Shown: positions 34,226-54,695 of the stretch, one piece after another
Layout: each line of letters begins with the position of its first letter
Position numbering within the stretch: position 1 is the stretch's first letter
Source: Oligoflexia bacterium
GTDB lineage: Bacteria; Bdellovibrionota; UBA1018; CAIPTA01
Reading direction: 5' to 3'
Length of the DNA stretch: 64,000 nt
NCBI GenBank assembly: GCA_023954355.1
Contig: JAMLID010000004.1
Coordinates: 1-64,000 of the forward strand
The notes under the pieces: generated by a model
Seen by the model: the letters and a program-made list of their open reading frames with translations, nothing else
Database searches by the model: none
What the model was told of the DNA's origin: nothing
Made by a program: the position numbers and the translations under genes

Positions 34226-34576
34226 ATGCAAAGGAAAGAGGATTTTTTGTTTATGTTATTTTTTGCTCCAGCCTTAGCGAGTATCCTTACTTTGTCCTTG
34301 TTTTTTTTATGGAAGAAGAAAAATAATAAAAACGAGATTGAGAAAGAGAAAAAAGAAACTTTTCGATTTTTAAATTCATTTGCGTGGATAATTTTTCTAA
34401 TTGCAGGAATTTATCTTAACCTATTTAATTTTTTAGTTTTTAAAAAATCTATTTTCGCTTTATCTGGATTCGAGCAGAAGTTTATTTTTTTTGCCACAGC
34501 GCTTTTTCCATTTATTCTGATTTGTATTCTCGTTTGGGGAGTAAAAAAATCTTTCACTAAGTGGATAGGGCATTAA
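34226..34576 (+). CDS. Possible NuoA-like three-helix membrane protein
   Basis: 116 residues with three hydrophobic segments (about 8-29, 50-72, 85-106) and a charged loop after the first, the layout of NuoA. RFLNSFAWIIFLIAGIYLNLF sits where NuoA has the conserved RFSVRFYLVAILFLLFDVEV stretch, and the end (KKSFTKW) recalls the RKGxLEW end of NuoA, but the conserved acidic residues are absent. A better ribosome-binding site precedes ATG 34253. The NuoA call rests mostly on topology and on being first in a nuo-ordered cluster. Confidence 0.5.
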   Translation: MQRKEDFLFMLFFAPALASILTLSLFFLWKKKNNKNEIEKEKKETFRFLNSFAWIIFLIAGIYLNLFNFLVFKKSIFALSGFEQKFIFFATALFPFILICILVWGVKKSFTKWIGH

Positions 34577-34579
34577 GTT

Positions 34580-35011
34580 ATGGCGAATGAGTCCAATTTT
34601 CATTCATTAAGTAAAATAAATAGAACTTCGCTATGGGTCTACCACGTACCAATTTTATGTTGCTCAAATGAGGTAGAGTCTGTTTTTGGTCCTAGATTTG
34701 ATTTGGATCGTTTTGGTATGTCTTTGACGAAAGATCATAGAAGAGCAGACATACTTCTTTTAACCGGGCCGATTAATGCTAAATTAGTGCCTTCTCTTAA
34801 AAAAATTTATAGCGAAATGAGTACTCCTAAGTGGGTTGTTGGAGTTGGGGTTTGTTCATTTGGGGGTGGAATGTTTGCTCCTAAGAATGAAAAATATGCC
34901 GATGAAATACCAATCAATGTATATATACCTGGGTGTCCTCCTCGCCCAGAATCAATTATTAACGCCCTACTCTCAATAGCAAATGAAGCAGGTAAACATG
35001 AATCTGCTTAA
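34580..35011 (+). CDS. Divergent NuoB-like Fe-S subunit
   Basis: 143 residues. The four NuoB cysteines that bind the terminal 4Fe-4S cluster N2 are all in place: tandem Cys27-Cys28, Cys92 (GVGVCSFGGG) and Cys119 (YIPGCPPRPE). FDLDRFGM, RADILLLTGP and PKWVVGVG also match the family, in a form somewhat closer to group 4 hydrogenase/Mbh-type small subunits. The residue pattern is quite different from the canonical NuoB at 44876. It probably forms the electron-transfer end of a second complex I-like assembly. Confidence 0.85.
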   Translation: MANESNFHSLSKINRTSLWVYHVPILCCSNEVESVFGPRFDLDRFGMSLTKDHRRADILLLTGPINAKLVPSLKKIYSEMSTPKWVVGVGVCSFGGGMFAPKNEKYADEIPINVYIPGCPPRPESIINALLSIANEAGKHESA

Positions 35012-35255
35012 ATTAGAATTTGAGAAGTTAAATTGTAAGCTAAATAGCGTATTGCGATCTTCCAATCAAATATCAAATTTATTTGAGTGTGATGCGAGGA
35101 CGGAACAAAAAGAAAAAATATTTGATTTTTTTGAGAGAAATAAAGCAGATGGCAAAATTAAAGATATTTTCTTTTTTAAATCTAGAAAAAATAATTTTTG
35201 TATAGTGTTAGGGCACGACAATACCATTTACAGAGTGGAGTTCTTAAATGAATGA
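34998..35255 (+). CDS. Small unknown protein in the NuoC position
   Basis: 85 residues from ATG 34998 (aggt upstream; it overlaps the B-like gene by 14 nt), or 90 residues from ATG 34983. It lies between the B-like and D-like genes where NuoC normally is, and it is less than half the length of a NuoC domain. I do not see the NuoC signature EREVFDLYGI; the KDIFFFKSRKNNFCIVLG stretch could be a remnant of the NuoC sheet, but that is speculative. Its last bases overlap the D-like start. Call by position only. Confidence 0.5.
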   Translation: MNLLKLEFEKLNCKLNSVLRSSNQISNLFECDARTEQKEKIFDFFERNKADGKIKDIFFFKSRKNNFCIVLGHDNTIYRVEFLNE

Positions 35256-36282
35256 TCATTTTGAAGAAATCAACATCCATTCTATTGAATCCGCTGCTGT
35301 ATACGGCATTGACTTATTATCTTTTGATTTGGTTGTAGATGATGGGTTAATTAAAAAGGCCTTAATAAGCAATAGTTTTTTAAATAGAAAAATTCAAGAA
35401 CTGAGCTTTCCTCAGAGTCTTAAGCTGTATACGTTAGCTTTTGAAAAAATAGATTATGATTACTCTCAGTACTATTCCCATGCTTTTGTTAGCACGCTAG
35501 AAGATTTATTAAGTCAATCTGTTAGTGAAAGAACGAAGCAAATTCGCAGATTGATTTTAGAACAATCTACAATTTATGGGTTACTCACTTTTTTCTTTAA
35601 ATTGTCTTCTATATTGGAAATAAGCGCATTGGCTAACTACTCTATTCGAGAACGAGACAGGGTTTCAGATTTATTTGAAATGTATTGTGGTTCTCGTCTA
35701 GGCTTTGGTGCTATCAATCTCTTTAATTATACTAATGATGTTTCTGATGGTTATATATTTAAGATAGAAAAAACACTGGCGTTTCTAAAAGAATATACAG
35801 AGGAGTTGAGTGTACTTTTATTGCAACACCCGCTTCTATTAAAAAGAGCAAGAGGGCTTGCGGTTGTTCAAGAAAGTCACTTTGATTCTGAAAGCTATTT
35901 AAAAAGTGATTTTAGCTTACTCTCAACTGATGTGTATCAAAGAATTTTAAATAAATATGATCTTTTTCTAAAATCCTTAAATACTATTTCTGAATTACTG
36001 ACAAAATTAAGTAAAAGCCCACAAGCGGATGATGATTCACTAAGGTTTCAAAAAAACGACCCTCTTCCATGGTCTTTTCAATCAATAAAAACTCCTAGAG
36101 GAGAGGCGGGGTTTTATTTAGAATTTGATCAGAACACAAAAACAATACGGTCTGTTGAGGTATCTACGTATTCGAGTAGAATTATTTCTTTGGTTGAGAA
36201 AATACTTATTGGTAATAACTTAGATGATCTTAGTTTAATTGTTGGGTCGTTTGATCTGAGCAGTTCGGAGATTGATTTATGA
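35248..36282 (+). CDS. Divergent NuoD-like 49-kDa-type subunit
   Basis: 344 residues, shorter than the NuoD part of NuoCD (about 385). Recognisable blocks are ERTKQIRRLILEQ (94-106), IRERDRVSDLFEMYCGSRL (133-151), TPRGEAGFYL (282-291) and the end GSFDLSSSEIDL (333-344), which parallels GSVN..AGELDR. The quinone-site HPATH and LHRxxEK histidines are gone (NRKIQE at 46-51). There is only one cysteine, so it cannot be a [NiFe] hydrogenase large subunit. It probably retains the fold but not quinone chemistry. Confidence 0.8.
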   Translation: MNDHFEEINIHSIESAAVYGIDLLSFDLVVDDGLIKKALISNSFLNRKIQELSFPQSLKLYTLAFEKIDYDYSQYYSHAFVSTLEDLLSQSVSERTKQIRRLILEQSTIYGLLTFFFKLSSILEISALANYSIRERDRVSDLFEMYCGSRLGFGAINLFNYTNDVSDGYIFKIEKTLAFLKEYTEELSVLLLQHPLLLKRARGLAVVQESHFDSESYLKSDFSLLSTDVYQRILNKYDLFLKSLNTISELLTKLSKSPQADDDSLRFQKNDPLPWSFQSIKTPRGEAGFYLEFDQNTKTIRSVEVSTYSSRIISLVEKILIGNNLDDLSLIVGSFDLSSSEIDL

Positions 36283-37202
36283 TAGTATTTATTAATCTAT
36301 TCATTAGCTTGATTTTGTGTTTCCTATATATAGTTTTTGCTTCATTTGTATTATTAGTAGCGCAAAGATTTTTAGACTCAAGGGTAGAACATAAAGAAGG
36401 GCCATTTTTTTATGGAATCCAGGGGTCTTTTCAAATTTTTTACGATTTTATACGTGAGTATAAAAAAAGATCAAGTAGAGGTATTTTTAGTTTTGAGTTT
36501 TTCGTAATTTCTTTTTGGGTAATAACCCCACTATTATTCTTTTTTGTCATTGTTAATAGAGCCATGCCTACCATTATTGAAGATTTAGGTGTTTTTATTT
36601 TAGTATTATTAATTGCTCTATCCATTATTTTTGATGTCTTATTTTCTTTGCTAACAACTGAGGCAAATGAGTCTTATTTGTGGAAAAGAAGAGCGGTTGT
36701 GCGCATTTTTGGATTAGGTGTTTTTTCAATTAGTTTTTTACCGATTATAATGGCAACGGGAAGTTTAGATATAGCAGCCTTTTCACTCATCCAAACCAAG
36801 GCACCATTTTTAAATTTACTATTAAGTCCAGGTAATTTTGTCGGAGGAATCATTGCGTTCGGTAGTGTTATCATTCTTAATCCAGATATTTTACTAGGGA
36901 AAAATAAACAGCTTAGTATTAACAATAGACGACAAGCTTTGATTGAGTTTATAGATGCGAGCTGGATAGTTGTATTACTTTCTTATTGGATTGTTGTTTA
37001 TTTCGGTGGTGTAAATAGCTATGTATCGGCAGGTTTATTTAGTTTTAAACTTTCATTTATTTTATTTATATTTCTCTTATTTAAGAAAGGAATAAGTAAA
37101 ATTAAAGCACAAGATGCTGCTGAGGTTTCGTTGAGATATTTATTTTCCTTTGGCTTTATTGGAGTTTTATTAGAAGTTTTTTGGATAGCATTCGTAAGGT
37201 GA
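36279..37202 (+). CDS. Divergent NuoH-like membrane subunit
   Basis: 307 residues, eight or so hydrophobic segments, length and position of NuoH. The early loop SRVEHKEGPFFYGIQGSFQIFYDFIREY parallels the RxGPNRVGPFGLLQxxADxxKxxxKE stretch of NuoH. The conserved quinone-loop block ETNRxPFDLPExESE is replaced by sequence without those glutamates (NPDILLGKNKQLSINN, then EFIDASW). It overlaps the D-like gene by 4 nt. Likely a structural homologue of the membrane heel subunit with an altered E-channel. Confidence 0.75.
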   Translation: MIVFINLFISLILCFLYIVFASFVLLVAQRFLDSRVEHKEGPFFYGIQGSFQIFYDFIREYKKRSSRGIFSFEFFVISFWVITPLLFFFVIVNRAMPTIIEDLGVFILVLLIALSIIFDVLFSLLTTEANESYLWKRRAVVRIFGLGVFSISFLPIIMATGSLDIAAFSLIQTKAPFLNLLLSPGNFVGGIIAFGSVIILNPDILLGKNKQLSINNRRQALIEFIDASWIVVLLSYWIVVYFGGVNSYVSAGLFSFKLSFILFIFLLFKKGISKIKAQDAAEVSLRYLFSFGFIGVLLEVFWIAFVR

Positions 37203-37205
37203 AAA

Positions 37206-37664
37206 ATGGGTTTGAGTCAGGCAATTAAAATTATTAAATTACTTTTAAAGTATTTAATAAGAACAACAAGTCGATATAAAGGTATTGTTGAGAGATATCC
37301 CGATGTAGTTTCTGCAAAAACGAGCGATGATCTATTTCCAACATATAAGGGGTATTTGAGAAACGATTTATCTAAATGTACTGCTTGTGGTGACTGCTTA
37401 ACTTTGTGTCCAGTTGAAGCCCTTTCATTTGTAGAGAATGAGTCAAGTACAGAAGTTAAGATAGAGGAATTCAATATAGACCTTGGGCGGTGCTATTCTT
37501 GTGGGCTCTGTGTAGAGAAATGCCCAGAAAAAAGCCTTTTTTTCTCTAAAGAATTTGAGTTGCACGCTACAAATTTAAATGGACTTGTTATGAAATTACA
37601 TGGAGAAGCATTTAAAAAAGAAAAAGATATTTCTAGAATTCGTACATACGATATTCGGAGGTAA
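37206..37664 (+). CDS. NuoI-like two-cluster ferredoxin subunit
   Basis: 152 residues. Two complete 4Fe-4S motifs are seen: CTACGDCLTLCP (Cys58, 61, 64, 68) and CYSCGLCVEKCP (Cys96, 99, 102, 106), spaced as in NuoI. An N-terminal amphipathic region precedes them. It ends with a basic tail. Together with the B-like subunit it would provide a chain of three 4Fe-4S clusters, so electron transfer capacity seems to be retained in this otherwise eroded cluster. Confidence 0.9.
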   Translation: MGLSQAIKIIKLLLKYLIRTTSRYKGIVERYPDVVSAKTSDDLFPTYKGYLRNDLSKCTACGDCLTLCPVEALSFVENESSTEVKIEEFNIDLGRCYSCGLCVEKCPEKSLFFSKEFELHATNLNGLVMKLHGEAFKKEKDISRIRTYDIRR

Positions 37665-37666
37665 GA

Positions 37667-38155
37667 TTGATAGTTTTTTTAGGAATTTTAATGGGAATAA
37701 TTATGGGAATGGTGTGGTTGTCGTTTTCCACGCATTCTTTATATAGATTAATTGGCGATATAATAATTTCTGTCGGTATTGGGCTTTCTTTATGTGTCGC
37801 CGTAGGAAGTTTGATTTGTTTAATCCCATTGGTTGTATACTTAATTGTAGATATAGGCACTCATCTTTATTTTCGTTCTGTTGATATCAAAAATGTTAGT
37901 GAAGAAATTTTTAAGCCACACAACATAATTTTAGGATTATTCTTCTTCTCAATTTTAACATCGGTAGGTTTTTTTATAGGCAAAAATATTTTATCAGAAT
38001 CTTTAGCGTTTGATGGTGTTGTAAAGTCTATAGCGGATCTAGGTGATTTATATCGTAAGAGCCTAATAGAAAACATGCTGTTTACTAGCGTTACAACATT
38101 AACTATTTTATCTGTGTCTATGGCGGGGTTTTTACTAAACAAAAAGGACGACTAG
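37667..38155 (+). CDS. Divergent NuoJ-like membrane subunit
   Basis: 162 residues, about five hydrophobic segments, as in NuoJ. TTG start at 37667, two bases after the I-like stop, with a strong cggaggt ribosome-binding site. The C-terminal IADLGDLYRKSLIENM followed by the last helix parallels the ELGGNITVLSQHMFSLY region of the canonical NuoJ at 51873. The conserved helix motif VYAGAIMVLFIFVIM appears only as VYLIVDI. Assigned from order, length and end similarity. Confidence 0.65.
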   Translation: MIVFLGILMGIIMGMVWLSFSTHSLYRLIGDIIISVGIGLSLCVAVGSLICLIPLVVYLIVDIGTHLYFRSVDIKNVSEEIFKPHNIILGLFFFSILTSVGFFIGKNILSESLAFDGVVKSIADLGDLYRKSLIENMLFTSVTTLTILSVSMAGFLLNKKDD

Positions 38156-38478
38156 TGTTGGTTGAAATAGAAAATGCATCAAGATTTTTATTGGCTGGTC
38201 TGGCAAGTCTAACTCTTTTAGGGCTTTTTTTGTATATAAGTGCAAATAATTTATTTACTACCGTAAAAAGTCTAGTTCTTTCTCTTAAAGCAGTAATTGC
38301 GTTAATTCTTTTATTAATGCTGAAAGAAGCGAATGTAAGCGCTAGTATGTTAATCTTTTTTGTTTTGTTAAGTGGTCTATTTGGATTAGTTGTGATCTTG
38401 GCAAGTTTTATTATGAACAGAATTAATCATGAAAAAGGGGATTTGGATTTAGATAAAAATTCAGAATTAAAAAATTAA
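38155..38478 (+). CDS. Divergent NuoK-like membrane subunit
   Basis: 107 residues with three hydrophobic segments, typical of NuoK. GTG start at 38155 overlaps the previous stop by one base. By alignment with the canonical NuoK (52416), the key Glu40 of the CIELML motif becomes Lys45 (SLKAVIAL), and Glu76 of AAAEGAVG has no acidic counterpart (SGLFGLVV). A polar, charged tail follows the third helix. Proton transfer of the usual kind is therefore unlikely. Confidence 0.7.
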   Translation: MLVEIENASRFLLAGLASLTLLGLFLYISANNLFTTVKSLVLSLKAVIALILLLMLKEANVSASMLIFFVLLSGLFGLVVILASFIMNRINHEKGDLDLDKNSELKN

Positions 38479-38481
38479 ATC

Positions 38482-40230
38482 ATGGATCAGCTACTATTAT
38501 ATTTTACAATTTTTTCTTTAAGTGTTCCGCTGCTTTTTTTTATTTTTTCCCCTATTTTAAGTGGCATTAATAATGAGAGAAAAAATTTATTTTATTCTAT
38601 TTCTTATATCCCCGCTCTATTGATTTGCTTAATTTCTGCAATTTCTTTAAGCGAAAGTATTAGTTTAGCACCGATATTCACTTTATCGTTGGAGAAAACA
38701 GGTTATTTTGATTTTTCTTTATTTCTGTATTGGAAAAGTTTATTTTTTATTTCCATACTGGCATTTTTCTTTTTAATAAGAGCTTATTTTATTTTTATTG
38801 AAGAAAATAAAGCAAATTCAGATTTGTATTTTAGTGGTGCGTCTTTCTTTTGTTTTAGTTTAGCACTGTTGAATGAAAATTATTTTACAGAGGTATTTTT
38901 TACAGAAATAGGAGCGTTTCTACTATATTTAGACCAAACAAGAAAATCTTCTGAAATAGAAGCGCTTGAAAAGGTTTATTATTTTCGTAGATATATTTTC
39001 ATTTTTCTTACTTGTGTTTCTATTTTGATATTAAGTTTTATTCCTGCTTTCGATATTCAATCTTTAATATTGCTGGCTTTTCTTTTATATTTTTTATCTT
39101 TTGTTTTCTCTAAGACGAAAATAAAAACTTTTTGTCAAGCTTCAGAGTTATTAATCATTTCTGTTGTACCGCTTTATATTTTAGATTCATTTATGAGTAA
39201 TGGGATAAGAGCGGGATTAGAGCTATGGGCCCCGATAGCGATTTTATTCGGCATAATATCTTTCTATTTGATTTTATCAGTAATTAGTCATGCGAATTTT
39301 GAAATTATAATTTCTAGATTGATACCATCTGTTCTTGGTTTATATATGTATCTGAACTTCTCTTCAGGTGGGAATAGTAGAGACTTATGGGCGTTACATC
39401 TCATAGCGATATTAATAAGCATTGGATTATTGCTTCTTTTAAGAGCAATGCCAATTCGTTCTGAAAATAAAGTATTTGAAATCTTAAAATATACCATGTG
39501 GTTCATTTCACTGGGGCTTATTGTTCAATTTGTTCCTGGGCCAATCATGTCACTAGATAGTTCTATTTTTAATATTTTCGGAGTGAATCCTATTTTGGTA
39601 GTATTGATATCTACTTTAATTACATCTGAATTATTTATCATTCAGAGATCCAAGAATAGCACTCTGGGAAGAGTGAAAAAGATTTCTGATTTTCGACCAT
39701 TTTTGTTCTTTCTACTTTTTTACACAATTTTTATCTCTATTATTTTTCTTAAATATAAAAATTTAATTACTTTAGATATGCTTAAAGTAGACCTACAATT
39801 ATATTTTACTTCGTGGAGGATTGCTGAAGTTTCAGTTGCAATCGTAGTTGGCGTACTGATTTATTATTGGTTCAGTAAAGCTGCCTTCCTTGCAAAATTC
39901 ATTCAAAAGATAGAAAAATCAAATAAAGAATCAAGTCCAATGATTGATGCTCGCGCCTGGAGTTTATTGCTTATGGCGGTGTCTCTACCTAAGAAGACTC
40001 AAATTTCTATTGAAAATTTTCAGGTTAAGCTTCGAAATAGAATACAAAAATTAATAGAATTTATAGATGCCGAGCTTTTATTAGAATTTTTCTATAAAAT
40101 ATTCAATTCATATTTGGTTTCAACGTCAGGACTAATTAGGCTTATTCACTCCGGGAATGGAAAAGTGTACTATTTAGTTTTTTTTATTATAGTATCGTTA
40201 TTTATGTTTTTCCTTTGGAGAGAAAGTTAA
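38482..40230 (+). CDS. Divergent NuoL-like antiporter-type subunit
   Basis: 582 residues, about fourteen hydrophobic segments. The clearest NuoL trait is the C-terminal end: amphipathic helix, then RLIHSGNGKVYYLVFFII and a final transmembrane helix, parallel to the canonical RTLQTGKLEHYLLAF end. A Glu is kept in VFFTEIGAFLLYL, the place of the helix-5 glutamate. The broken-helix motif GKSAQxPLxxWLPDAM is missing. It fits as the distal subunit with the lateral helix that braces the others. Confidence 0.7.
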   Translation: MDQLLLYFTIFSLSVPLLFFIFSPILSGINNERKNLFYSISYIPALLICLISAISLSESISLAPIFTLSLEKTGYFDFSLFLYWKSLFFISILAFFFLIRAYFIFIEENKANSDLYFSGASFFCFSLALLNENYFTEVFFTEIGAFLLYLDQTRKSSEIEALEKVYYFRRYIFIFLTCVSILILSFIPAFDIQSLILLAFLLYFLSFVFSKTKIKTFCQASELLIISVVPLYILDSFMSNGIRAGLELWAPIAILFGIISFYLILSVISHANFEIIISRLIPSVLGLYMYLNFSSGGNSRDLWALHLIAILISIGLLLLLRAMPIRSENKVFEILKYTMWFISLGLIVQFVPGPIMSLDSSIFNIFGVNPILVVLISTLITSELFIIQRSKNSTLGRVKKISDFRPFLFFLLFYTIFISIIFLKYKNLITLDMLKVDLQLYFTSWRIAEVSVAIVVGVLIYYWFSKAAFLAKFIQKIEKSNKESSPMIDARAWSLLLMAVSLPKKTQISIENFQVKLRNRIQKLIEFIDAELLLEFFYKIFNSYLVSTSGLIRLIHSGNGKVYYLVFFIIVSLFMFFLWRES

Positions 40231-41571
40231 ATGGAACTTTTATTGCTTAGTGGGTATCTAGCTTCTCCTATTCTTGTTTTTTTAATAAGTTACTTTTTAT
40301 TACATAAATGGCCAGTATCTAATGGCATTTGGCTTATTCTAAGTGTTATTAGAGTTCTGTTTTTAATTCTACTCTTTTTCGAAAGCAGCACTGGACTTGG
40401 TCATATTATTGGTGAAGTTGGAGATCCAAGAATATGGAGGTTTTCACTTGATTTGGCATTAAATAAAAGTCATTTGGGATTTTTGTTTATAGTTGATTTT
40501 TGCTTTTTAATATCAAACCACTCTATACACAAAAGTATAAGGCATAGAAATTCTATTGGTTTTTTTGGAGCCTTATTGCAAGCACTTATTCCTATTTATA
40601 TCATTTGTCATAATATTCTTGCCGCAGCAGGTGTGTTATTTTTATCTGCGATTTGTATGTATTATTTTCTAATTAATGCAAATTCTTCAAAAGAAAATCT
40701 AGAAGATTCTAATCTTATTCAGTCTTTTTTTATAACAATTTCTAGAGTAGCTATTTTAACTGGTGTATGGGGTTTTTTAGAATTTCAAGATTCAGATTTT
40801 ATTTTGAAAAATATTCAAGGCACTAATTTTGGTTTTTACTTGTGGATGGTAATGGTCGTTTTTACTATTCCCCTGCCACCTTGGTCTAGGCGTTTGAATA
40901 TCTTAATTTCGAATTTACCGCCAAACTTAGTAATTGTTTCTATGATTTTATTGAGTGCGATGGCCTATAAAAATATTTTTTCTTTTTCACAAATTTATAC
41001 TTCGTGGTCTGGTCTAGAGAAAATGATTTTTTACGGCTTAGGCCTGATTTCATCGATATTTGGCGTTTTAGAGTTATTCTCAGACAAGACCCCACATAAG
41101 CTACCAGTTGGAATGCCGTTATTTTTCTTATCTCTTATGCTTATTTCACTTGGTTTATCTCAGGAATCAATGGCGAAGTCGGCCTTTTTTCTTAGTATGC
41201 TGGTGCCTGCGTCTGTGAGTTTTGTTGTATGCTTTCCTAGTAGTGGAACAAATTCGGTTTTACATAAGATTTTTTATTCTATTCTATTTATTCTGATTTT
41301 AGGCCTTCCTGGTACGCCAATATACTTAGTGTTTAGTTCATTGGGATCAAAATCTATTGAAATTGGTTTGTGGACTACGGCTATTTTCGGTTTGATTTGG
41401 TTTTTTTATTTTAGTGTTAACGTACATTTTTTTAGGACAGCGATTTTATCGGAAAAAGACAATATAAAAAATGGATCATCAAATGAGCAAGGAAAAGAGT
41501 TTTTGGTACTCGGTATTTTACTTGGACTTGTTTTAATAATGATAGGGTATTTAACGGGAAGATTATTATGA
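40231..41571 (+). CDS. Divergent NuoM-like antiporter-type subunit
   Basis: 446 residues, about twelve or more hydrophobic segments. FTIPLPPWSRRLNILISNLPPNLVIVS parallels the NuoM block [26 protein letters not shown]: the helix-7 lysine is Thr212, the second lysine (VLLKLGGYG) is Ser in ILLSAMAYK, and the helix-5 glutamate of FWEAM is absent (LSAIC at 138-142). All three charged residues thought to drive pumping in NuoM are replaced. Start ATG follows a ggagag site. Confidence 0.75.
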   Translation: MELLLLSGYLASPILVFLISYFLLHKWPVSNGIWLILSVIRVLFLILLFFESSTGLGHIIGEVGDPRIWRFSLDLALNKSHLGFLFIVDFCFLISNHSIHKSIRHRNSIGFFGALLQALIPIYIICHNILAAAGVLFLSAICMYYFLINANSSKENLEDSNLIQSFFITISRVAILTGVWGFLEFQDSDFILKNIQGTNFGFYLWMVMVVFTIPLPPWSRRLNILISNLPPNLVIVSMILLSAMAYKNIFSFSQIYTSWSGLEKMIFYGLGLISSIFGVLELFSDKTPHKLPVGMPLFFLSLMLISLGLSQESMAKSAFFLSMLVPASVSFVVCFPSSGTNSVLHKIFYSILFILILGLPGTPIYLVFSSLGSKSIEIGLWTTAIFGLIWFFYFSVNVHFFRTAILSEKDNIKNGSSNEQGKEFLVLGILLGLVLIMIGYLTGRLL

Positions 41572-43013
41572 GCGATTCGTTCTATTTAGTTTTAATTTTA
41601 GGCCCTATTCTTCATGCAATATTTATAACATTAAATGCACTTTTTAAATTTGATAAACATAATGTGTGGAAGATTTTTACATGTTTACATGGGCTATCAA
41701 CACTAAGCGTTGCATTTGTAATGATCGCTAGCTTATTGAATAAGCAAGAACTTACACAAAGAGGTGCACAATTTTTATTAGAATCTCCGCTATTTCGTTC
41801 AGGGACAGTTTTATTAGAGATAAATAGATTCAGTTCGATATTAGCTTTTTTTATAAATTTAATTTTCTTTTTAAATCAGTTTTTAATTATTAGAAGACGA
41901 GAATTTAGTAAATCAGAAGTTTCTGCTTGGTCGGCTCTTTCTATCTCATTAGCCGGTGTACTGTTTGGTGGAAGCATTTCACTATACATATTTTTTATGT
42001 CTCTAATGTTGATTTCTTTAGTGACTATTTTCGGATCCGATGTTTTCGAAGAGAAAGAAAAGTATTTAAAGTATCTAGTGGGTAAGGGGCTTTTATCTAT
42101 TCTACTTTTAATTGTGGTAGATTTGGTTTCTAAAGGAGACTACTTAATCCATTTCCCAAAATTTCTAGGAGATAGTTTCGAATCAAAGGAAAAAATACAC
42201 TTATTTGGCATTTTGCTTTCATTTTGGCTTATTTCTGGTTTGCCTCCCTTTCATTTAGATTTAAGCCTTGGATTAAAGGCTAAAAATTATGAAAGAAATT
42301 TAGCAAATATTGCACCAGCAATTTTTTCTATTGTTTTAATTACCTTTCACTTACCTAAAGAAACAGTTCTTTTTGAAGAAATGAGAGTTTTCATTTTAGG
42401 GTTATTTATAGGGATTTTGTTTTTTTCTGTATTTGACTTAATGAGGAGAAATAAAATTAATGAATACGAATTTAGAGGTGTTTACGCGTGGATGCTTTCC
42501 TGGGTAATGTTAGGATTATTCTCTGGTAATTCAAAAGGCATTAGTGGAGGCTTAGTCTTGGCTCTAGTGGTTCCTATTATTTATAGTTTAAATATTGCAG
42601 TCGGCTTACTAACTTCAAATAATAGCCAACAAGTGGATAATATAGAGTCAGATTTTTCTTATATAAGTGATATTGCTTTCATACTCTCTAGGGCGGCTAC
42701 ACTTTTTGCTCCGGTTTCTATAGGATGTCTCTCACTTTTTATGATTATAACGGCAATTAAAAATGAAGGTTCTAGCTGGGCGCTTTACTTGGTGATTGCA
42801 GTGCTTTCTCTTTCTATACTTGCAACAGCAAAAAACTTTTTAATTAATAGCGAATATTCCAGCGAGTATTCTTTATCTCAAAGATTAAGATCAATTCAGG
42901 CAAATCATATGATTTTTTTACTGCCGCTAATAACTAGTTTGTTGCTTTCTATTATGTTGCCGTCTGTTTTTTTAAATGCAGGATTTGAGGGGTATTTATT
43001 ATTTTTTCGCTAA
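41568..43013 (+). CDS. Extra antiporter-type subunit, NuoM/NuoN-like
   Basis: 481 residues, about thirteen hydrophobic segments; it overlaps the previous gene by 4 nt. SGLPPFHLDLSLGLKA parallels the [18 protein letters not shown] block of NuoN without its lysine. YLKYLVGKGLLS parallels AIKYFITGSVAS. The helix-5 glutamate of SLELMSL is replaced in SLMLISL. A canonical complex I has three such subunits, so this is a fourth in the set. Whether it derives from M or N is unclear. Confidence 0.65.
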   Translation: MSDSFYLVLILGPILHAIFITLNALFKFDKHNVWKIFTCLHGLSTLSVAFVMIASLLNKQELTQRGAQFLLESPLFRSGTVLLEINRFSSILAFFINLIFFLNQFLIIRRREFSKSEVSAWSALSISLAGVLFGGSISLYIFFMSLMLISLVTIFGSDVFEEKEKYLKYLVGKGLLSILLLIVVDLVSKGDYLIHFPKFLGDSFESKEKIHLFGILLSFWLISGLPPFHLDLSLGLKAKNYERNLANIAPAIFSIVLITFHLPKETVLFEEMRVFILGLFIGILFFSVFDLMRRNKINEYEFRGVYAWMLSWVMLGLFSGNSKGISGGLVLALVVPIIYSLNIAVGLLTSNNSQQVDNIESDFSYISDIAFILSRAATLFAPVSIGCLSLFMIITAIKNEGSSWALYLVIAVLSLSILATAKNFLINSEYSSEYSLSQRLRSIQANHMIFLLPLITSLLLSIMLPSVFLNAGFEGYLLFFR

Positions 43014-43036
43014 AATTTTTTTTATTTAACTATTAT

Positions 43037-44467
43037 ATGTTTTTCCCCATGGGAGTCTTGTTATTTTCTGTTATTTTACAGTTGGTTTTTTTATCTTTCT
43101 TTAATCAGGCGACTAAAAAAAATTCTTTTAAAGAATATTTTGCGTTGTCAGCATTTGCACTTTGCGCCATTTATTTTCTGATAGGGTTTTCTTTAAAGGA
43201 CACGCTATACCTGACTGTTTACTATGATGCGGCTATTTTCAGGTTGCCTAGAGCAGTACTTTGTATAGCTGCTATAGTTATTTATTTGGGTTTAAGTAGG
43301 TCAAAGTTTTTCAACGAAAAACTTCGCTCAGAATTAATTTTAAATCTTTCTTTGATTATATTTTTATTAGATCAATTAATTGTATCTTCTAACATTATTC
43401 TCAGTTTTATATTATTAATGGGAATTTCTTTTTCTTTTATAGCTTTTATCGGAATGAGTAGAGGTTACTATGGTAGAATCGAGTCATTAACTAAATCATT
43501 TGTTTCTTTAGGGTTTGGATTCATTTTTTCGTCTATTTGTCTTGTATTTGTTTTATTCTCTGTTTCATCAGGGGACATATTTCAAATTAAGGAATTCTTA
43601 AATCAATCAGGAACCAATCATTTCTTCTACATTTTATTACTTTTAAGTACGTATTTGCCTTTAGTTCTATTAGGGCAATTATTTCCGTTTCATTTTTTTG
43701 CGATAGATCGAAGTCAAGGAGTGCCTTGGGGTCTTAAAATTTTATCTGTCATCACTCAGGGTGTTGTTTTAATTTCTTCTGTAAAGTTTTTGACTATTTT
43801 ATGGTCTGGAAACTTAAATCAGTCACAATATGAGTTAGGGTTTCGCTTTTTAAGTCTTTTAGGTGGAATCTGGCTTGGTCTTTTTCAGGTTACTCAACCT
43901 AAGATGAGTAGAGCTTTTGCGGCATATTCTTTGGTTTTATATAGTATTGTTGCTTCTGTTGCATTTAGTGGGGGGCCAAGGTCTTTAGCTGTTTCCGTTT
44001 ACGCATTTTCTGCATATACACTTTGTATTTTGGTTTTTGGCTATATTTGGGGCAGAGCTTCCGAGATTATAGATAGTGATGAGATTCATCTTATGAATGG
44101 CTTAGGAGCTCAATCAAAGCTTATTTCTTTATTGGTGTTTTGCGTGTTGAGTGGCGTTTCACTACTTCCTTTTTTTCCAGGATTAGTGATAAATCACGAA
44201 GTTTTAAAATCTTTTTTAAACACTGGGTCTGGAGTGGCTGTGAGCGCAGCTCTATCTCTCTTGCTTTGCTTAGGATTTATGAGTTGTCGTTATCTTTGGT
44301 CGTTTCTATTTCTACCTTCACATACACTGTCTGAGGTGAGTTGGACATTGGATAGGTTAGAGCGCGCTGTGTTAGTTGTTTGTGCTTTCGCGTTTTTAAT
44401 ATTTGGTATTTCGGGCTTTTCTCTAATGAATCTACTAGAACCATCTGCAAAGCTCTTTCTAAAATAA
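43037..44467 (+). CDS. Divergent NuoN-like antiporter-type subunit
   Basis: 476 residues, about thirteen hydrophobic segments. LFPFHFFAIDRSQGVPWGLKIL parallels the [22 protein letters not shown] block of NuoN, and QPKMSRAFAAYSLVLYSIVA parallels QSNFKRLMAYSAIAHTGYLL. The helix-5 glutamate (SLELMSL) is replaced (FILLMGISF) and the helix-7 lysine is absent. The ATG at 43037 lacks a Shine-Dalgarno. It is the last gene before canonical nuoA, which starts 42 bp downstream. Confidence 0.75.
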   Translation: MFFPMGVLLFSVILQLVFLSFFNQATKKNSFKEYFALSAFALCAIYFLIGFSLKDTLYLTVYYDAAIFRLPRAVLCIAAIVIYLGLSRSKFFNEKLRSELILNLSLIIFLLDQLIVSSNIILSFILLMGISFSFIAFIGMSRGYYGRIESLTKSFVSLGFGFIFSSICLVFVLFSVSSGDIFQIKEFLNQSGTNHFFYILLLLSTYLPLVLLGQLFPFHFFAIDRSQGVPWGLKILSVITQGVVLISSVKFLTILWSGNLNQSQYELGFRFLSLLGGIWLGLFQVTQPKMSRAFAAYSLVLYSIVASVAFSGGPRSLAVSVYAFSAYTLCILVFGYIWGRASEIIDSDEIHLMNGLGAQSKLISLLVFCVLSGVSLLPFFPGLVINHEVLKSFLNTGSGVAVSAALSLLLCLGFMSCRYLWSFLFLPSHTLSEVSWTLDRLERAVLVVCAFAFLIFGISGFSLMNLLEPSAKLFLK

Positions 44468-44509: not shown

Positions 44510-44872
44510 ATGTCCGGCTACTTTCCGGTTTTGCTTTTGTTTTTAGTAGGTTTAGCGATTTCTTCAGCTGTAATATTTGGTGTCGCACTACTTGGGCCTA
44601 AGCGACCAAATAAATTTAAAAACTCTGTTATTGAGTGTGGTGTTCCGCCAAGTGGTGATGCTAGAAAAAGATTTTCTGTGCGTTTCTATTTAGTCGCCAT
44701 ATCATTTTTACTCTTTGATGTTGAAGTTGCTTTACTGTTCCCATGGGCAATCGCGTATAGGAAATATCTTGAATTCAATTTATTTGCTCTAGGATTAATG
44801 TTGTTTTTTTTAACGATGATCACCGTAGCTTTTGTGTATGAGTGGCGCAAGGGCGGATTGGAATGGGAGTAA
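44510..44872 (+). CDS. nuoA: NuoA, NADH-quinone oxidoreductase subunit A
   Basis: 120 residues, three transmembrane helices. It shows the conserved ECGVPPSGDARKRFSVRFYLVAI, LFDVEVALLFPWA and C-terminal YEWRKGGLEWE of NuoA. The first gene of the canonical nuo operon, preceded by an aggggg site seven bases upstream. Only 42 bp separate it from the divergent NuoN-like gene, with no terminator seen, so the two gene sets may share a transcript. Confidence 0.96.
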   Translation: MSGYFPVLLLFLVGLAISSAVIFGVALLGPKRPNKFKNSVIECGVPPSGDARKRFSVRFYLVAISFLLFDVEVALLFPWAIAYRKYLEFNLFALGLMLFFLTMITVAFVYEWRKGGLEWE

Positions 44873-44875
44873 ATT

Positions 44876-45343
44876 ATGCCTAAAGATGGAGCACCAGAAG
44901 TCATCACTACAAAGTTAGATGATTTTGTAAATTGGGCGCGTGCGAACTCTCTATGGCCGTACCCTTTTGGAACAAGTTGTTGTGGTATAGAGATGATGGC
45001 AACTTTGTCTGCGGATTATGACTTGGCAAGATTTGGAGCAGAGGTAGTGAGGTTCTCTCCTCGCCAAAGTGATATGATGATTGTGGCGGGAACGATCACT
45101 GAAAAAATGGGCCCCGTACTGAAAACTATTTATGAGCAAATGCATGATCCTAAGTGGGTGATTGCTATGGGAGCATGCTCTTCTTCAGGGGGTATTTTTG
45201 ATACCTACAGTGTGGTTCAAGGTGTTGATGAAATTATTCCTGTAGATATCTATATACCCGGTTGTCCGCCATCTCCAGAAGGAGTGATACATGGCGTGAT
45301 GAGGCTCCAAGAGAAAATTAAAAAAAATAAGGCGATGATCTAA
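44876..45343 (+). CDS. nuoB: NuoB, NADH-quinone oxidoreductase subunit B
   Basis: 155 residues. Carries cluster N2, the last Fe-S cluster before quinone. Ligands: tandem Cys35-Cys36 ([10 protein letters not shown]), Cys101 (MGACSSSGG) and Cys130 ([10 protein letters not shown]). Also [20 protein letters not shown], typical of bacterial NuoB. It starts three bases after nuoA and is the functional counterpart of the divergent gene at 34580. Confidence 0.97.
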
Positions 45344-45346
45344 AAT

Positions 45347-47140
45347 ATGAATGTAGAATTTTCTGTAGATGGTTTAGAGAGACTAAAAGGAAGATACGCG
45401 AAAGAGATTCAAGAGCTGCAATCAACTGGTTCAGATGTGCCAATTGTTTATGTGGCTAAGGAAAATCTTATTAGTTTTTTATCTTCTATACGAAAAGAAG
45501 AAGGATTCGAGCTGAGTTTCTTAGCTGACTTGACGGCCTATGATGATAACCCCCCCTTGGGTGAGATAAGGGATTATGGATTGGGTTCCGTTCGAAAAGA
45601 AAGTGGTGACCACCGCTTTGTTGTTGTTTATCAATTATTGTCTCTTCAAACAAAGGACAGGCTTAGAGTTAAAGTTCGTTTAAATGATGGAGAAGATTGC
45701 CCATCAGTGGTTTCACTTTGGAAGTCTGCGAATTGGTTAGAAAGAGAAGTATTTGATTTATATGGGATACGATTCACGGGGCACCCTAATCTAAAGAGAA
45801 TTTTATTAGACGATCGCTGGGTGGGACACCCACTTAGAAAAGACTACCCCATTAAAAAATATCAAAGATTTGAAGATGCTGCTTCGTTAGAGAGTTTTGG
45901 CTTATCTTTAGATGAATCTGATCCAGCAAAAAAGCAAATAGATGATGATTTTGAAGAGGAGGGGGATATTTTTGAAGGTTCTCAGACACTCATTAATATT
46001 GGTCCTCAGCACCCTGCAACTCACGGGACGTTAAGGATAGCTTGTAAATTAAGTGGCGAAACTGTGATTGATAGTCATTGCGAGATTGGGTATTTGCATA
46101 GAGCAATGGAAAAATTGGGTGAGGTTAAAACTTATCATAAGTTTATTCCCTATACTGATCGATTAAACTATTGTTCGGCTCTACAAAATAACGTTGCATA
46201 TGTAACAAGTGTAGAGAAATTAATGGGAATCGAGCTCCCTCCTAGAAACACTTACATCCGTACTATGGTTTGTGAAATGGCTAGAATTATAGACCATATT
46301 ATTTGTGTAGGAATCAGCGCTTTTGATTTAGGTGCAATGACTTATTTTCTTTATGGCTTTCATCAAAGAGAAGAATGTTATTCATTAATTGAAAGTCTTT
46401 GTGGATCTCGATTGACTACAACATATACTCGCGTTGGCGGTCTGTCGGCAGACTTGCCAGACGGTTTTTTGCCTAGAATGAAAAAATGGTTAGATGGCTT
46501 AGAAGATACTTTAAAAGAAATGGATAAGCTTTTAACGAATAATCGAATTTGGGTAGATCGAACAAAGGGAATTTCGGCATTTACAGCAGATCAAGTGATG
46601 ACATATTCGATGACAGGTCCTTGTATGCGTGCATCTAATATTAACTTTGATTTAAGAAGAGATCGACCGTACCTCGCATACAAACAGTTAGAGTTTGATG
46701 TTCCTGTTGCCAAGGGCGGTGATGTCTATGACCGCTACTTAGTACGTGTTCAAGAGATGTATGAATCTATTCGTATCCTTCGTCAAATAATTGAGAAAAT
46801 GCCGAGTGGTCCAATTTGGGCTGATGATAAAAGAATTAGAATTCCAGATAAAGGTAGAGTTCATAACTCAATGGAATCATTGATTCACCATTTTAAATTC
46901 TTTATGGAAGGGTTCGATGTTCCTGAAGGTGAGGCTTATGTTCCAATGGAAGGGCCAAATGGAGAGGTTGGATTTTATATAGTTAGTAAGGGGGGGCCTA
47001 AAGCTTATCGTTTAAGGATAAGAGCGCCTTCTTTCTTTATGTTTCAGCCCGTGCCAGAAATGGTTAAGGGAGAGAATATAGCGGATGTAATTGCTGCTAT
47101 AGGATCTGTGAATATTATTGCTGGAGAGTTGGATCGATAG
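45347..47140 (+). CDS. nuoCD: NuoCD fusion, NADH-quinone oxidoreductase subunits C/D
   Basis: 597 residues. The NuoC part (1 to about 190) has the signature WLEREVFDLYGIRFTGHPN. The NuoD part (about 214 to the end) opens with NIGPQHPATHGTLR, then IGYLHRAMEKLGE and PYTDRLNY, which carry the quinone-pocket His and Tyr, and ends GELDR. The fusion resembles that of E. coli and some other lineages. The divergent cluster upstream has C-like and D-like parts as separate genes. Confidence 0.96.
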   Translation: MNVEFSVDGLERLKGRYAKEIQELQSTGSDVPIVYVAKENLISFLSSIRKEEGFELSFLADLTAYDDNPPLGEIRDYGLGSVRKESGDHRFVVVYQLLSLQTKDRLRVKVRLNDGEDCPSVVSLWKSANWLEREVFDLYGIRFTGHPNLKRILLDDRWVGHPLRKDYPIKKYQRFEDAASLESFGLSLDESDPAKKQIDDDFEEEGDIFEGSQTLINIGPQHPATHGTLRIACKLSGETVIDSHCEIGYLHRAMEKLGEVKTYHKFIPYTDRLNYCSALQNNVAYVTSVEKLMGIELPPRNTYIRTMVCEMARIIDHIICVGISAFDLGAMTYFLYGFHQREECYSLIESLCGSRLTTTYTRVGGLSADLPDGFLPRMKKWLDGLEDTLKEMDKLLTNNRIWVDRTKGISAFTADQVMTYSMTGPCMRASNINFDLRRDRPYLAYKQLEFDVPVAKGGDVYDRYLVRVQEMYESIRILRQIIEKMPSGPIWADDKRIRIPDKGRVHNSMESLIHHFKFFMEGFDVPEGEAYVPMEGPNGEVGFYIVSKGGPKAYRLRIRAPSFFMFQPVPEMVKGENIADVIAAIGSVNIIAGELDR

Positions 47141-47617
47141 ATGAAAAAGGTATTTGGAGAAAAATTTTACCAAGAAATGGACAGAATTTCGCAATTCTAT
47201 CCAAATAAAAGAGCAATGCTTTTGCCTGCATTACATGCGGCCCAAAAAGAGCGTGGATGGATTTCTGATGAAACCATGCAAGATGTTGCTGATTTTTTAG
47301 AAATTCCTAAAACTCAGGTGAAGGAAGTAGTTACCTTTTACCATATGTTTCATACTAAGCCTGTTGGTAAGGTGAATTTACAGTTTTGTAATAATATCGC
47401 TTGCTGGCTTCGTGGATCAGAAGAGTTAATTCATCACGCAGAAAAAAAATGTAATATTCGGTTAGGTGAAACTACAGGTGATGGAGTCTTTACTATATCT
47501 GAAGTGGAATGCTTGGGGTCTTGTGGCACGGCACCAGTTTGTCAGGTAAATGATGATTACCATGAAAATTTTTCTGTAGAAGCTTTAGATAAATTATTAG
47601 AGGGCAGACAATCATGA
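47141..47617 (+). CDS. nuoE: NuoE, NADH-quinone oxidoreductase subunit E
   Basis: 158 residues, thioredoxin-like fold with one 2Fe-2S cluster (N1a). The four ligand cysteines are in FCNNIACW and VECLGSCGTAP. It starts directly after the nuoCD stop and overlaps nuoF by 4 nt. Part of the NADH-oxidising module that the upstream divergent cluster lacks. Confidence 0.95.
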   Translation: MKKVFGEKFYQEMDRISQFYPNKRAMLLPALHAAQKERGWISDETMQDVADFLEIPKTQVKEVVTFYHMFHTKPVGKVNLQFCNNIACWLRGSEELIHHAEKKCNIRLGETTGDGVFTISEVECLGSCGTAPVCQVNDDYHENFSVEALDKLLEGRQS

Positions 47618-48888
47618 ATCATGAAATCGTCTTTTCTAAATATTACGGCGAATCTCAAACAGAAGGATTAGATTATTATAAAAAGCATGACTATGGATAT
47701 AATGCTCTACTAAAGGCAATTGAGATGGGCTTTGAGAAAGTTCATCAAGAAGTTAAAGATAGTGGCTTAAGAGGTCGTGGTGGGGCTGGTTTCCCTTGTG
47801 GTATGAAGTGGGGATTTATTCCTAAAAATACAGAAAAGCCTATTTATCTAGTAATTAATGCAGATGAGTCCGAGCCTGGAACATTTAAAGATCGTGCAAT
47901 TATGGCATACCAGCCACACTTGATGATTGAAGGGGCAATTATTTCTGCCATGACGATTAAGGCACATATGATTTACGTTTATATCCGTGGAGAATATGTA
48001 AAAGAGGCTAAGATTTTAGATGCGGCAATAGAGGAAGCTTATAAAGCTGGTTATTTAGGTAAAAATGTTGCGGGTACAGGATATCAATTAGATATGGTTG
48101 TCCATAGAGGTGCTGGGGCATATATTTGTGGTGAAGAAACAGCGCTATTGAATTCTTTAGAGGGTAAAAGAGGAGAGCCTAGAATTAAGCCTCCATTTTT
48201 TCCAGCAGCAATTGGTTTGTTTAGTTGTCCCACTGTTGTGAACAATGTTGAAACTCTGGCTTGTGTTCCAATGATTGTTTCCAAAGGCGCTGAGTGGTTT
48301 CGTTCTTTTGGTCCAGAAAAAAATCATGGAATGAAACTCTTTTGTATTTCTGGGCATGTAAATCGCCCAGGTCTTTATGAGCGACCCATGGGGTATCCAC
48401 TCATGAAATTAATAGAAGAAGATTGTGGCGGAATATGGAAGGGCAGAAAATTAAAAGCAGCTTTTCCTGGAGGGTCATCGGCACCTGTTTTGACGGCAGA
48501 AGAATGTAATGTAAATTTAGATTTTGATTCACTGGCAAAAGCAGGCTCTATGCTTGGTTCTGCTGGTATTATGGTTATTGATGATGCGACCTGCATATTA
48601 AAAGTAGCGATTAGAACAGCTCATTTTTATCAAGTAGAGAGTTGTGGTCAGTGTACGCCGTGCAGAGAAGGATCGATGTGGCTTAAAGAGTTACATATTC
48701 GATTAGAAGCGGGTGAAGGTAAAGTTAGTGATTTAGATCTCATAGAAGATATTTGTAATAATATGGACGGAACAACGATTTGTGCTTTCGGGGAGGCAAC
48801 GGCTTGGCCTCTGAGAAGTATGGTTAAGAAATTTCGATCAGAATATGAACAACATGTTGTTGAAAAGAGATGTCCGTTTGAGGGTTAG
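47614..48888 (+). CDS. nuoF: NuoF, NADH-binding subunit
   Basis: 424 residues. Binds NADH and FMN and the N3 4Fe-4S cluster. Motifs: GLRGRGGAGFPCGMKW (NADH/FMN), NADESEPGTFKDR, GAYICGEETALLNSLEG, and the cluster ligands ESCGQCTPCREG plus TTICAFGEA. All expected residues are present. It overlaps nuoE by 4 nt. Confidence 0.97.
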   Translation: MNHEIVFSKYYGESQTEGLDYYKKHDYGYNALLKAIEMGFEKVHQEVKDSGLRGRGGAGFPCGMKWGFIPKNTEKPIYLVINADESEPGTFKDRAIMAYQPHLMIEGAIISAMTIKAHMIYVYIRGEYVKEAKILDAAIEEAYKAGYLGKNVAGTGYQLDMVVHRGAGAYICGEETALLNSLEGKRGEPRIKPPFFPAAIGLFSCPTVVNNVETLACVPMIVSKGAEWFRSFGPEKNHGMKLFCISGHVNRPGLYERPMGYPLMKLIEEDCGGIWKGRKLKAAFPGGSSAPVLTAEECNVNLDFDSLAKAGSMLGSAGIMVIDDATCILKVAIRTAHFYQVESCGQCTPCREGSMWLKELHIRLEAGEGKVSDLDLIEDICNNMDGTTICAFGEATAWPLRSMVKKFRSEYEQHVVEKRCPFEG

Positions 48889-48905
48889 CGTAGAAAGGTA
48901 ATGCT

Positions 48906-50318
48906 ATGGCAAAAGTTGTAATTGATGGAGTTGATGTAGAGTTTGAAGCCGGCGAAAAAATTATCGACGTTGCTTCAAAAGTAAACAACCACATTCCAAG
49001 ATATTGCTATCATGAGGGGCTCTCTATAGTAGCTCAATGTAGAATGTGTTTAGTGGAGGTTGAGGGGCAACGAAAATTAGTTACTGCTTGTTCTACACCT
49101 TGCACTGATGGGATGAAGGTTTCTACTAAATCTGAGAAAGTTAAAAAAGCTGTATCGGGAGTACAAGAGTTTTTATTAGTAAACCATCCCTTGGATTGCC
49201 CAATATGTGATCAAGCTGGTGAATGTAGCTTGCAAGAGTATAGCTATAAGCATGGCCAAGAAGATGCCCGAACGGATTTTTTTAGAAGAACATATATAGA
49301 TGTGGATATGGGGCCATCTATTAAGAAAAACATGAATCGCTGTATTCATTGCACGAGATGTATTCGGTATTGTGATGAAGTTGGCCAAATTCATGAAATG
49401 ATTGCCCAACAAAGAGGAAATGATACTGAGATTGTTACGATAGATGGAAATCCTTTACAGACAGCGTATGCTGGCGGGTTAGCTGATGTTTGTCCTGTTG
49501 GTTCATTAACAACTAAAGATTTTAGGTTTAAGAAAAGAGTTTGGTATTTAAGGAGTAAAGACACAATTTGTGATGGTTGCTCACAAGGGTGTAATATTTC
49601 TGCTTCTTTTGAAAGCAACCTTATTTACCGACTTGAACCAAGAAAAAATATGGACATTAATAAGTGGTGGATGTGCGATGAGGGTAGATACGGGTTTCAC
49701 CACGTACATAGCCCATCAAGAGTCTTGGGGCCATTAATAAAGACAAGCGATAGTTTTGAGTCACGTCTTTGGGGAGATCTTATCCCCTCAGTCAGCGCTT
49801 TAGTTCAACAAGCGAAAAATATTTCAGTGGTAGTTGCTGCTGATGCAACATTAGAAGAAGTTGCTATATTGAAGACTCACTTTTCTTCAGCAAATTTCTA
49901 TTCTTATAGTCCAAGTGTAGAGAAAACATCTGAAGATAAGGCTGTTGATCACTTGATTAGAAGAAAAGACAAGTCTCCTAACTTAAAAGGATTAGAAGAA
50001 AGCGGCCTTCGTCCATTCTCTGAGCTTAAGAGTGGAAGTGATTTATTGATATTTTTCAATGCGGGAAAAGTGCGTGTACCTTATGGATTAGCTAAATTAG
50101 CTAAAAATGCTATAGCAATAGGTGTCGCTATGAAAGAAGACTTAAATGGCTGGAATTATGTTCTTCCTTCTTTATCTACTTATGAAAAATCAGGCACATT
50201 TGTGAATCATACTGGTATGAAACAAAAATTTGCTGCCGCAATTGCACCTGTAGGATTATCTAGGCCTTTAAATAAAATATTAGAAGCACTTACAAAGTCA
50301 GATAGAAAGGTAGGATAG
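48906..50318 (+). CDS. nuoG: NuoG, Fe-S subunit G, short form
   Basis: 470 residues, well below the usual 650-900. The N-terminal half is complete: 2Fe-2S ligands (CYHEG, QCRMC, ACSTPC), the His-Cys N5 motif (HPLDCPICDQAGEC), and N4 ligands (NRCIHCTRCIRYC, then DVCPVGS). A CxxCxxxC-27-C motif (CDGCSQGC, then MCDEGR) matches the off-path N7 cluster. The molybdopterin-like domain after it is largely reduced. The reading frame is clean to the stop, so this looks like a natural short form. Confidence 0.92.
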   Translation: MAKVVIDGVDVEFEAGEKIIDVASKVNNHIPRYCYHEGLSIVAQCRMCLVEVEGQRKLVTACSTPCTDGMKVSTKSEKVKKAVSGVQEFLLVNHPLDCPICDQAGECSLQEYSYKHGQEDARTDFFRRTYIDVDMGPSIKKNMNRCIHCTRCIRYCDEVGQIHEMIAQQRGNDTEIVTIDGNPLQTAYAGGLADVCPVGSLTTKDFRFKKRVWYLRSKDTICDGCSQGCNISASFESNLIYRLEPRKNMDINKWWMCDEGRYGFHHVHSPSRVLGPLIKTSDSFESRLWGDLIPSVSALVQQAKNISVVVAADATLEEVAILKTHFSSANFYSYSPSVEKTSEDKAVDHLIRRKDKSPNLKGLEESGLRPFSELKSGSDLLIFFNAGKVRVPYGLAKLAKNAIAIGVAMKEDLNGWNYVLPSLSTYEKSGTFVNHTGMKQKFAAAIAPVGLSRPLNKILEALTKSDRKVG

Positions 50319-50319
50319 C

Positions 50320-51423: not shown

Positions 51424-51432
51424 GGAGAAGAA

Positions 51433-51876
51433 ATGCTAATTAAAAGAGAGCATAGTTTTTGGCAAAAATTTTATCTGGTTGAGTTTTTTCTTGGTCTTGG
51501 GATCACTTTAAAGAACTGGTTTTTTGGTAAAAACATCACCTATCAATATCCAGAGCAAAGAAGACAGTATTCTCCAAGATATCGAGGGCAGCACTATATT
51601 AAATCAGTAAACGGGGTAGAAAATTGTACTGCTTGTATGCTTTGTCCTACCGTTTGTCCTGCTGACTGTATTCATATAGAAGCGGGAGAAAAAGAGAATA
51701 AAGAAAAATATCCAGTTAAATTTGATATTGATATTCTGCGCTGTTGTTTCTGTGGGTATTGTGAAGAGGCCTGCCCAAAAGATGCAATTAAATTATCTAA
51801 TATATATGAAATGGCAGATTACGAGCGTCGAGTATACGACAAAGATTTTTTGATGATTCAAAGGGCAAAAAAATGA
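51433..51876 (+). CDS. nuoI: NuoI, NADH-quinone oxidoreductase subunit I
   Basis: 147 residues with two 4Fe-4S motifs (N6a and N6b): CTACMLCPTVCP and CCFCGYCEEACP. The N-terminal amphipathic segment (FWQKFYLVEFFLGL) docks on the membrane. It overlaps nuoJ by 4 nt and follows nuoH behind a gggagaag site. Confidence 0.97.
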   Translation: MLIKREHSFWQKFYLVEFFLGLGITLKNWFFGKNITYQYPEQRRQYSPRYRGQHYIKSVNGVENCTACMLCPTVCPADCIHIEAGEKENKEKYPVKFDIDILRCCFCGYCEEACPKDAIKLSNIYEMADYERRVYDKDFLMIQRAKK

Positions 51877-52412: not shown

Positions 52413-52415
52413 TTT

Positions 52416-52730: not shown

Positions 52731-52739
52731 AGGAAAAAA

Positions 52740-54677: not shown

Positions 54678-54695
54678 AACTTGAAAGAGGAATAG

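Follow-up and report, generated by a model that had tools for sequence, protein, structure and literature searches.

Respiratory complex I in its 14-subunit form is encoded by nuoA-N, and the four genes of the window dealt with here (NuoB-, NuoD-, NuoH- and NuoI-like) are all homologous to subunits of its Q- and P-modules. Ehr complexes are complex I-related machines derived from group 4 hydrogenases, in which the large subunit is without active-site ligands. Formate hydrogenlyase (FHL) and the group 4 membrane-bound hydrogenases belong to the same superfamily; a canopy Arg/Asp and an incomplete antiporter Glu/Lys pair have been described for FHL (PMC9474812). As for the 11-subunit form, the enzyme of Desulfitobacterium hafniense is considered a menaquinone reductase, and growth that depends on it is blocked by rotenone (PMC11238625).

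The locus described here shares with the D. hafniense enzyme its gene content and order, the absence of an N-module, the ligands of N2, N6a and N6b and the NuoD fold; it differs from it in having neither the quinone residues nor nearly any of the pump residues. Compared with the 14-subunit complex I, it has no NuoEFG, it has lost the quinone and pump residues, and its NuoD-like protein stands on a branch separate from the NuoD of its own class. Like Ehr, the paralog has a large subunit that has lost the active-site residues, but its D proteins score as NuoD (6e-102 with NuoD models, against only E = 0.005 with a [NiFe] hydrogenase model) and its gene set is of the Nuo type; it departs from FHL and the group 4 hydrogenases in having no identified NiFe-binding motif, in its three antiporter-like subunits and in its tandem arrangement with nuo. 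An identity as a [NiFe] hydrogenase or Ehr found no support, the PDB matches shown being all complex I or NDH. This second complex I set, placed beside the normal one and with quinone and pump residues lost, looks like a respiratory complex turned to an undescribed job; no description of such a disarmed tandem complex I was found in the literature searched, the coverage of which was incomplete.

Gene content of the paralog and its neighbour

A sequence-only reading of the window (the whole stretch of 64,000 nucleotides analysed here) had dealt with the B-, D-, H- and I-like genes and was incomplete: pump residues are lost as well, and the four genes are only a part of a larger operon of 11-12 genes. 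This operon encodes an 11-subunit complex I paralog, spans 34226-44467 and has 12 genes in the window, corresponding to a nuoABCDHIJKLMN-like set with one extra antiporter-like gene in the window's taxonomic order; the genes are arranged as A, B, a short ORF replacing C, D, H, I, J, K, L, the extra antiporter-like gene, M and N. No gene for NuoE, NuoF or NuoG (the NADH module) was seen between 34226 and 44467 on reading the ORFs. The features are as follows:

34226..34576, + strand: NuoA-like small membrane protein, first gene of the paralog (from position and size only)
34580..35011, + strand: NuoB-like protein with C27, C28, C92 and C119 (Pfam PF01058, 3e-22; NCBIfam NuoB, 7.7e-38)
34998..35255, + strand: short ORF of 85 aa in NuoC's place (sequence and position)
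35248..36282, + strand: NuoD-like protein; H38, D139 and LHRxxEK lost, Y70 at the Y87 position, R284 and D343 kept (Pfam NuoD, 5e-17)
36279..37202, + strand: NuoH-like protein without the quinone-loop glutamates (Pfam PF00146, 1.2e-8; alignments)
37206..37664, + strand: NuoI-like protein with the eight N6a/N6b cysteines (Pfam Fer4 dicluster, 2x[4Fe-4S]; NCBIfam NuoI, 1.5e-17)
37667..38155, + strand: NuoJ-like membrane protein (ORF and gene order; the counterpart in the related locus L050 matches Oxidored_q3)
38155..38478, + strand: NuoK-like protein, both E-channel glutamates lost (Pfam PF00420, 1.1e-4, below the cut-off; alignment)
38482..40230, + strand: NuoL-like protein without pump residues (position and size; weak profile comparison)
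40231..41571, + strand: extra antiporter-like subunit (weak M-like profile match)
41568..43013, + strand: NuoM-like protein, key Glu/Lys lost (97% profile match to the M-like proteins of the class)
43037..44467, + strand: NuoN-like protein, key Glu/Lys lost (99% profile match to the N-like proteins of the class)
44510..57776, + strand: normal nuoA-B-CD-E-F-G-H-I-J-K-L-M-N operon, with quinone-site and pump residues intact and nuoM frameshifted

NCBIfam names the B, D and I subunits of the window, and H is named by Pfam alone; A, C, J, L and the extra antiporter are assigned mainly by position (and size). In the window, the NuoA-like gene has no NuoA Pfam match, the NuoL-like gene has no Pfam hit, and the 85-aa ORF has neither detectable similarity nor a relevant Pfam match. 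The paralog of L050, a fuller relative, has Pfam matches for A (Oxidored_q4 at the NuoA-like position), C, D, H, J, K, M and N, its B and I being recognised by alignment and its L by position only; a NuoC-like gene is thus present there. In most loci of family f3, as well as in L041, L043 and L045, NuoC is missing and the B gene overlaps the D gene. The extra antiporter-like gene is confined to the window's order, where it occurs in the window, in L034 and, partially, in a genome of the same family. Regarding the structures, the AlphaFold2 model of the D-like protein has a pLDDT of 86, and its best PDB matches are the 49-kDa subunits of complex I (Foldseek, TM 0.87); that of the L-like protein (pLDDT 53) is too poor for use.

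The normal nuoA begins 42 bp past the end of the paralog operon on the same strand, and the window has no terminator-like site at this junction; judging from this spacing, they are probably co-transcribed. In the normal nuoM (54696-56290), a frameshift at 55190-55240, either real or an assembly error, leaves two overlapping ORFs; the N-terminal half has counterparts in the two nearest genomes, where the gene is intact (520 and 540 aa).

Cluster ligands, quinone site and pump residues

The four N2 cysteines of the B-like protein and the eight N6a/N6b cysteines of the I-like protein (C58, C61, C64, C68 and C96, C99, C102, C106) are present exactly where the sequence-only reading had placed them. 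Homologues lacking them were sought as evidence against selective retention: the N2 cysteines are kept in 47/48, 48/48, 48/48 and 48/48 of the class homologues, the first being absent in L064 only, and those of N6a/N6b in 44/44 at seven positions and 43/43 at one. All 12 cysteines are kept, compared with 48/174 of the other positions that are universal in ordinary NuoB, NuoD, NuoH and NuoI (Fisher 6e-7), and in B and I alone the figures are 12/12 cysteines and 19/47 other universal positions (p = 1.5e-4); these p-values are to be read as guides, related sequences not being independent. By subunit, the paralogs keep 19/42 of the ordinary-universal positions in B, 12/17 in I, 19/76 in D and 10/51 in H, and newly conserved positions amount to 5 in B, 11 in I, 7 in D and 0 in H.

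As for the quinone site, Y87 follows the numbering of T. thermophilus Nqo4, and H38, D139 and Y87 correspond to His59, Asp160 and Tyr108 of the mammalian 49-kDa subunit. The D-like protein of the window has neither HPATH nor LHRxxEK, as had been claimed, but the loss is less complete than the claim implied, since Y70 (in 'KIDY') aligns with the quinone-binding Tyr, Y87 of T. thermophilus. Among the paralog D proteins, H38 is found in 0/48 (Pro in 39), D139 in 0/48 and Y87 in 5/47 (Pro in 35), with replacement in 42/47; the five tyrosines belong to the window, its order-mate L034 and three proteins of family f8. Homologues retaining quinone-site residues, which would speak against the earlier claim, are therefore absent as far as His38 and Asp139 are concerned, but do exist for Tyr87 and, in f8, for some loop glutamates. 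The His of LHRGxEK is kept in about 31/49 homologues, so that the absence of this motif from the window does not extend to the whole class. The residues His59, Asp160 and Tyr108 of the mammalian 49-kDa subunit have been named as the proton source for quinone (PMC7613608).

In the H-like protein of the window, none of the four positions of the TM5-6 loop carries a glutamate, which bears out the reported loss of the quinone-loop glutamates; across the class, these are gone save in two f8 proteins and at scattered single positions, counts that rest on a gappy alignment. Control NuoD proteins from other groups and phyla, taken from named-genome loci, keep His and Tyr in 79/79 cases, two of them with Glu at the Asp position; the five named-genome NuoD that lack these residues are members of the class, the own normal NuoD of which keeps the quinone residues. 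The replaced pocket varies by family: it reads DPE in most, and DY in f2, f8 and the window. Two residues close to the former active site do not vary, the canopy Arg (R284; 45/45) and the canopy Asp (D343; 44/44); from the alignment, R284 of the window reads as the canopy Arg of complex I, where both residues are reported to be important (PMC9474812).

Regarding the membrane arm, the NuoM-like proteins have lost the TM5 Glu, the TM7 Lys (often Arg), the TM8 Lys and the TM12 Glu outside f8; in the NuoN-like proteins, only the TM12 Lys survives widely, being kept in most of f7, with f8 as a partial exception. The L-like proteins keep none of the key pump residues, and both glutamates are lost from NuoK in the alignment. 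Ordinary 11-subunit sets, including a third copy present in some class genomes, keep nearly all pump residues. Family f8 is intermediate, with Tyr87, some loop glutamates, the TM8 Lys and TM12 Glu of NuoM and the TM5 Glu of NuoN.

Distribution, selection and origin

The B-like protein was searched in 58 genomes of the class (phylum Bdellovibrionota), most of them metagenome bins, and about 16 kb around the NuoB matches were read for gene content. NuoB was found in all 58, with two or more copies in most, and the 11-gene nuoABCDHIJKLMN-like set recurs across the class directly upstream of the normal nuo operon; in total, the paralog is present in nearly all sampled genomes, from about 37 genera, with about 48 homologues that fall into 8 families. 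The junction between the two sets is at most 264 bp in 34/34 scorable loci; in one of these the sets overlap owing to an over-called start, and the other gaps have a median of 38 bp. In the same-family genome G001, at least the L-like, extra and M-like genes are found on a short contig. In f3 (L035-L041), the L-like (about 280-415 aa) and M-like (327-396 aa) proteins are much shorter, and NuoC is absent in most. Two genomes of genus g4, G009 and G011 (loci L200 and L201), have a normal nuo operon and no paralog: direct searches of both found only the normal D and I, and the sequence upstream of their nuoA partly matches the upstream flank of paralog-bearing relatives. These natural deletions indicate that the normal complex can do without the paralog, at least in genus g4, in which the paralog is already reduced.

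Other nuo-type loci were met in the phylum. In several class genomes (L176-L181), a further 11-subunit nuoABCDHIJKLMN set, the third, lies elsewhere; it is intact, has ordinary quinone-site residues and, where checked, mostly intact pump residues. In other classes (L166-L175), there is a B-C-D-I cluster with intact quinone motifs and no NuoH or antiporter genes recognised near it, the membrane genes possibly lying elsewhere. This check outside the class covered about ten loci by eye and 80 named loci, and was not exhaustive.

As regards selection, dN/dS in close f3 pairs is 0.03-0.05 for the paralog B, D, H and I genes, and that of the normal B and D is 0.01-0.02; some values for I and for GC-rich f8 pairs were left out, being distorted by over-long ORF starts. 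The paralog genes are under purifying selection: they evolve faster than the normal copy, yet are clearly constrained. The sequence-only reading had argued for selective retention of the ligands and not simple decay, and this holds over about 48 homologues in 8 families.

In the NuoD tree, a quick tree with long branches, all paralogs lie on one side of one branch (SH-aLRT 99); the class's own NuoD is separate (100), and the paralogs adjoin the 11-subunit NuoD of other groups. A recent duplication of the adjoining operon was rejected, as the paralog D proteins form one clade apart from the class's own NuoD. Family f8 and the pair formed by the window and f2 branch first, an order that resembles the normal D tree and is consistent with vertical inheritance. 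In an unrelated Deltaproteobacteria MAG (L089, 1191-12986), an intact 11-subunit set is followed after 13 bp by a second nuoABC. This arrangement is a plausible ancestral state: a tandem of this type may have been passed down to the class, its upstream set losing activity later.

Possible roles of the disarmed complex

The paralog keeps the ligands of N6a, N6b and N2 and, by structure prediction, the NuoD fold; the residues that bind or protonate quinone and most of the proton-moving residues of the membrane arm are lost. The favoured explanation, to which we assign a probability of about 0.4, is that a complete but catalytically disarmed complex I, an 11-subunit assembly without NADH module, would persist as an Fe-S partner of the normal complex or as its regulator. 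It would descend from an 11-subunit complex I that once worked and that, in the class ancestor, lay upstream of the normal nuo operon and in tandem with it. The paralog would still assemble in the membrane and form its clusters, it would no longer reduce quinone or pump, and it would serve the adjoining complex I as a stabilising or regulatory partner; its Fe-S core would be needed for folding and might also exchange electrons, or take part in redox sensing, with the partner or a soluble donor. The partner role is suggested by the class-wide tandem linkage, with no terminator-like site between the sets in the window, by the retention of the 12 cysteines set against the losses at the quinone site, in NuoK and in L, M and N, and by the dN/dS values, the single origin of D and the concentration of new conserved positions in B and I; G009 and G011 count against it, in that the partner is not obligatory there, and so does the invariance of the canopy Arg and Asp, which would not be required of a purely structural relic. 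The broader proposal, by which a whole respiratory complex would have become a conserved pseudo-complex that keeps its Fe-S chain and works with the complex I of the same operon across the class, is tentative.

The sequence-only reading had thought of a different acceptor, and the retained clusters could form an electron conduit in which a soluble donor, e.g. ferredoxin, passes electrons through N6a, N6b and N2 to a non-quinone acceptor placed in or near the altered NuoD pocket, with no energy conservation. All 12 ligands, the invariant canopy Arg and Asp and the position of most new conserved residues in the Fe-S subunits agree with it, and ferredoxin is thought to be the electron source of 11-subunit enzymes (PMC11238625). 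However, the H38, Y87 and D139 positions have no common replacement motif across families, so the idea of another acceptor is weakened for want of a single replacement pocket; such variation fits a pocket free to drift and not one shared new substrate. Moreover, a dead membrane arm is odd to keep for a simple conduit, and the operon was not seen to include any gene for a donor or an acceptor, which makes a conduit somewhat unlikely. A residual chemistry on quinone or another lipid carrier, carried out in an unusual manner by the kept Tyr (window, f2 and f8), the canopy Arg/Asp and other groups, could be read from Y70 of the window, the Tyr and loop glutamates of f8 and the conserved R284 and D343, but it is improbable given that H38 and D139 are lost throughout, that Y87 is mostly replaced, that the triad they form is the named proton source (PMC7613608) and that the H-loop and NuoK glutamates are gone.

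The retention of clusters and membrane arm without catalysis, in an operon shared with complex I, could likewise suit a complex I derivative that senses redox or membrane state and signals via its clusters, either to the normal complex or to a regulator. Neither a regulatory domain nor a conserved gene for a regulator was noticed within the operon and most of the sequence drifts, and the odds of a sensor are accordingly low. As for a decaying relic without function, the loss of NuoC in several lineages, the shortened L and M of f3, the absence from two genomes and the faster evolution than the normal copy would all be expected of one, but simple decay is rejected by the class-wide presence in about 37 genera with long intact frames, by dN/dS far below 1 and by the 12/12 cysteines, and a relic is highly improbable.

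In conclusion, complex I is studied by breaking single residues, and here the quinone site, the glutamates of the E-channel and most of the pump residues have gone in the course of evolution, while ligands and scaffold were maintained by strong selection. The paralog thus offers a natural experiment on what the machine needs for purposes beyond catalysis, with the deletions in G009 and G011 as useful controls, and it points to a role, as yet undescribed, that a complex I-like assembly would have next to the normal complex.
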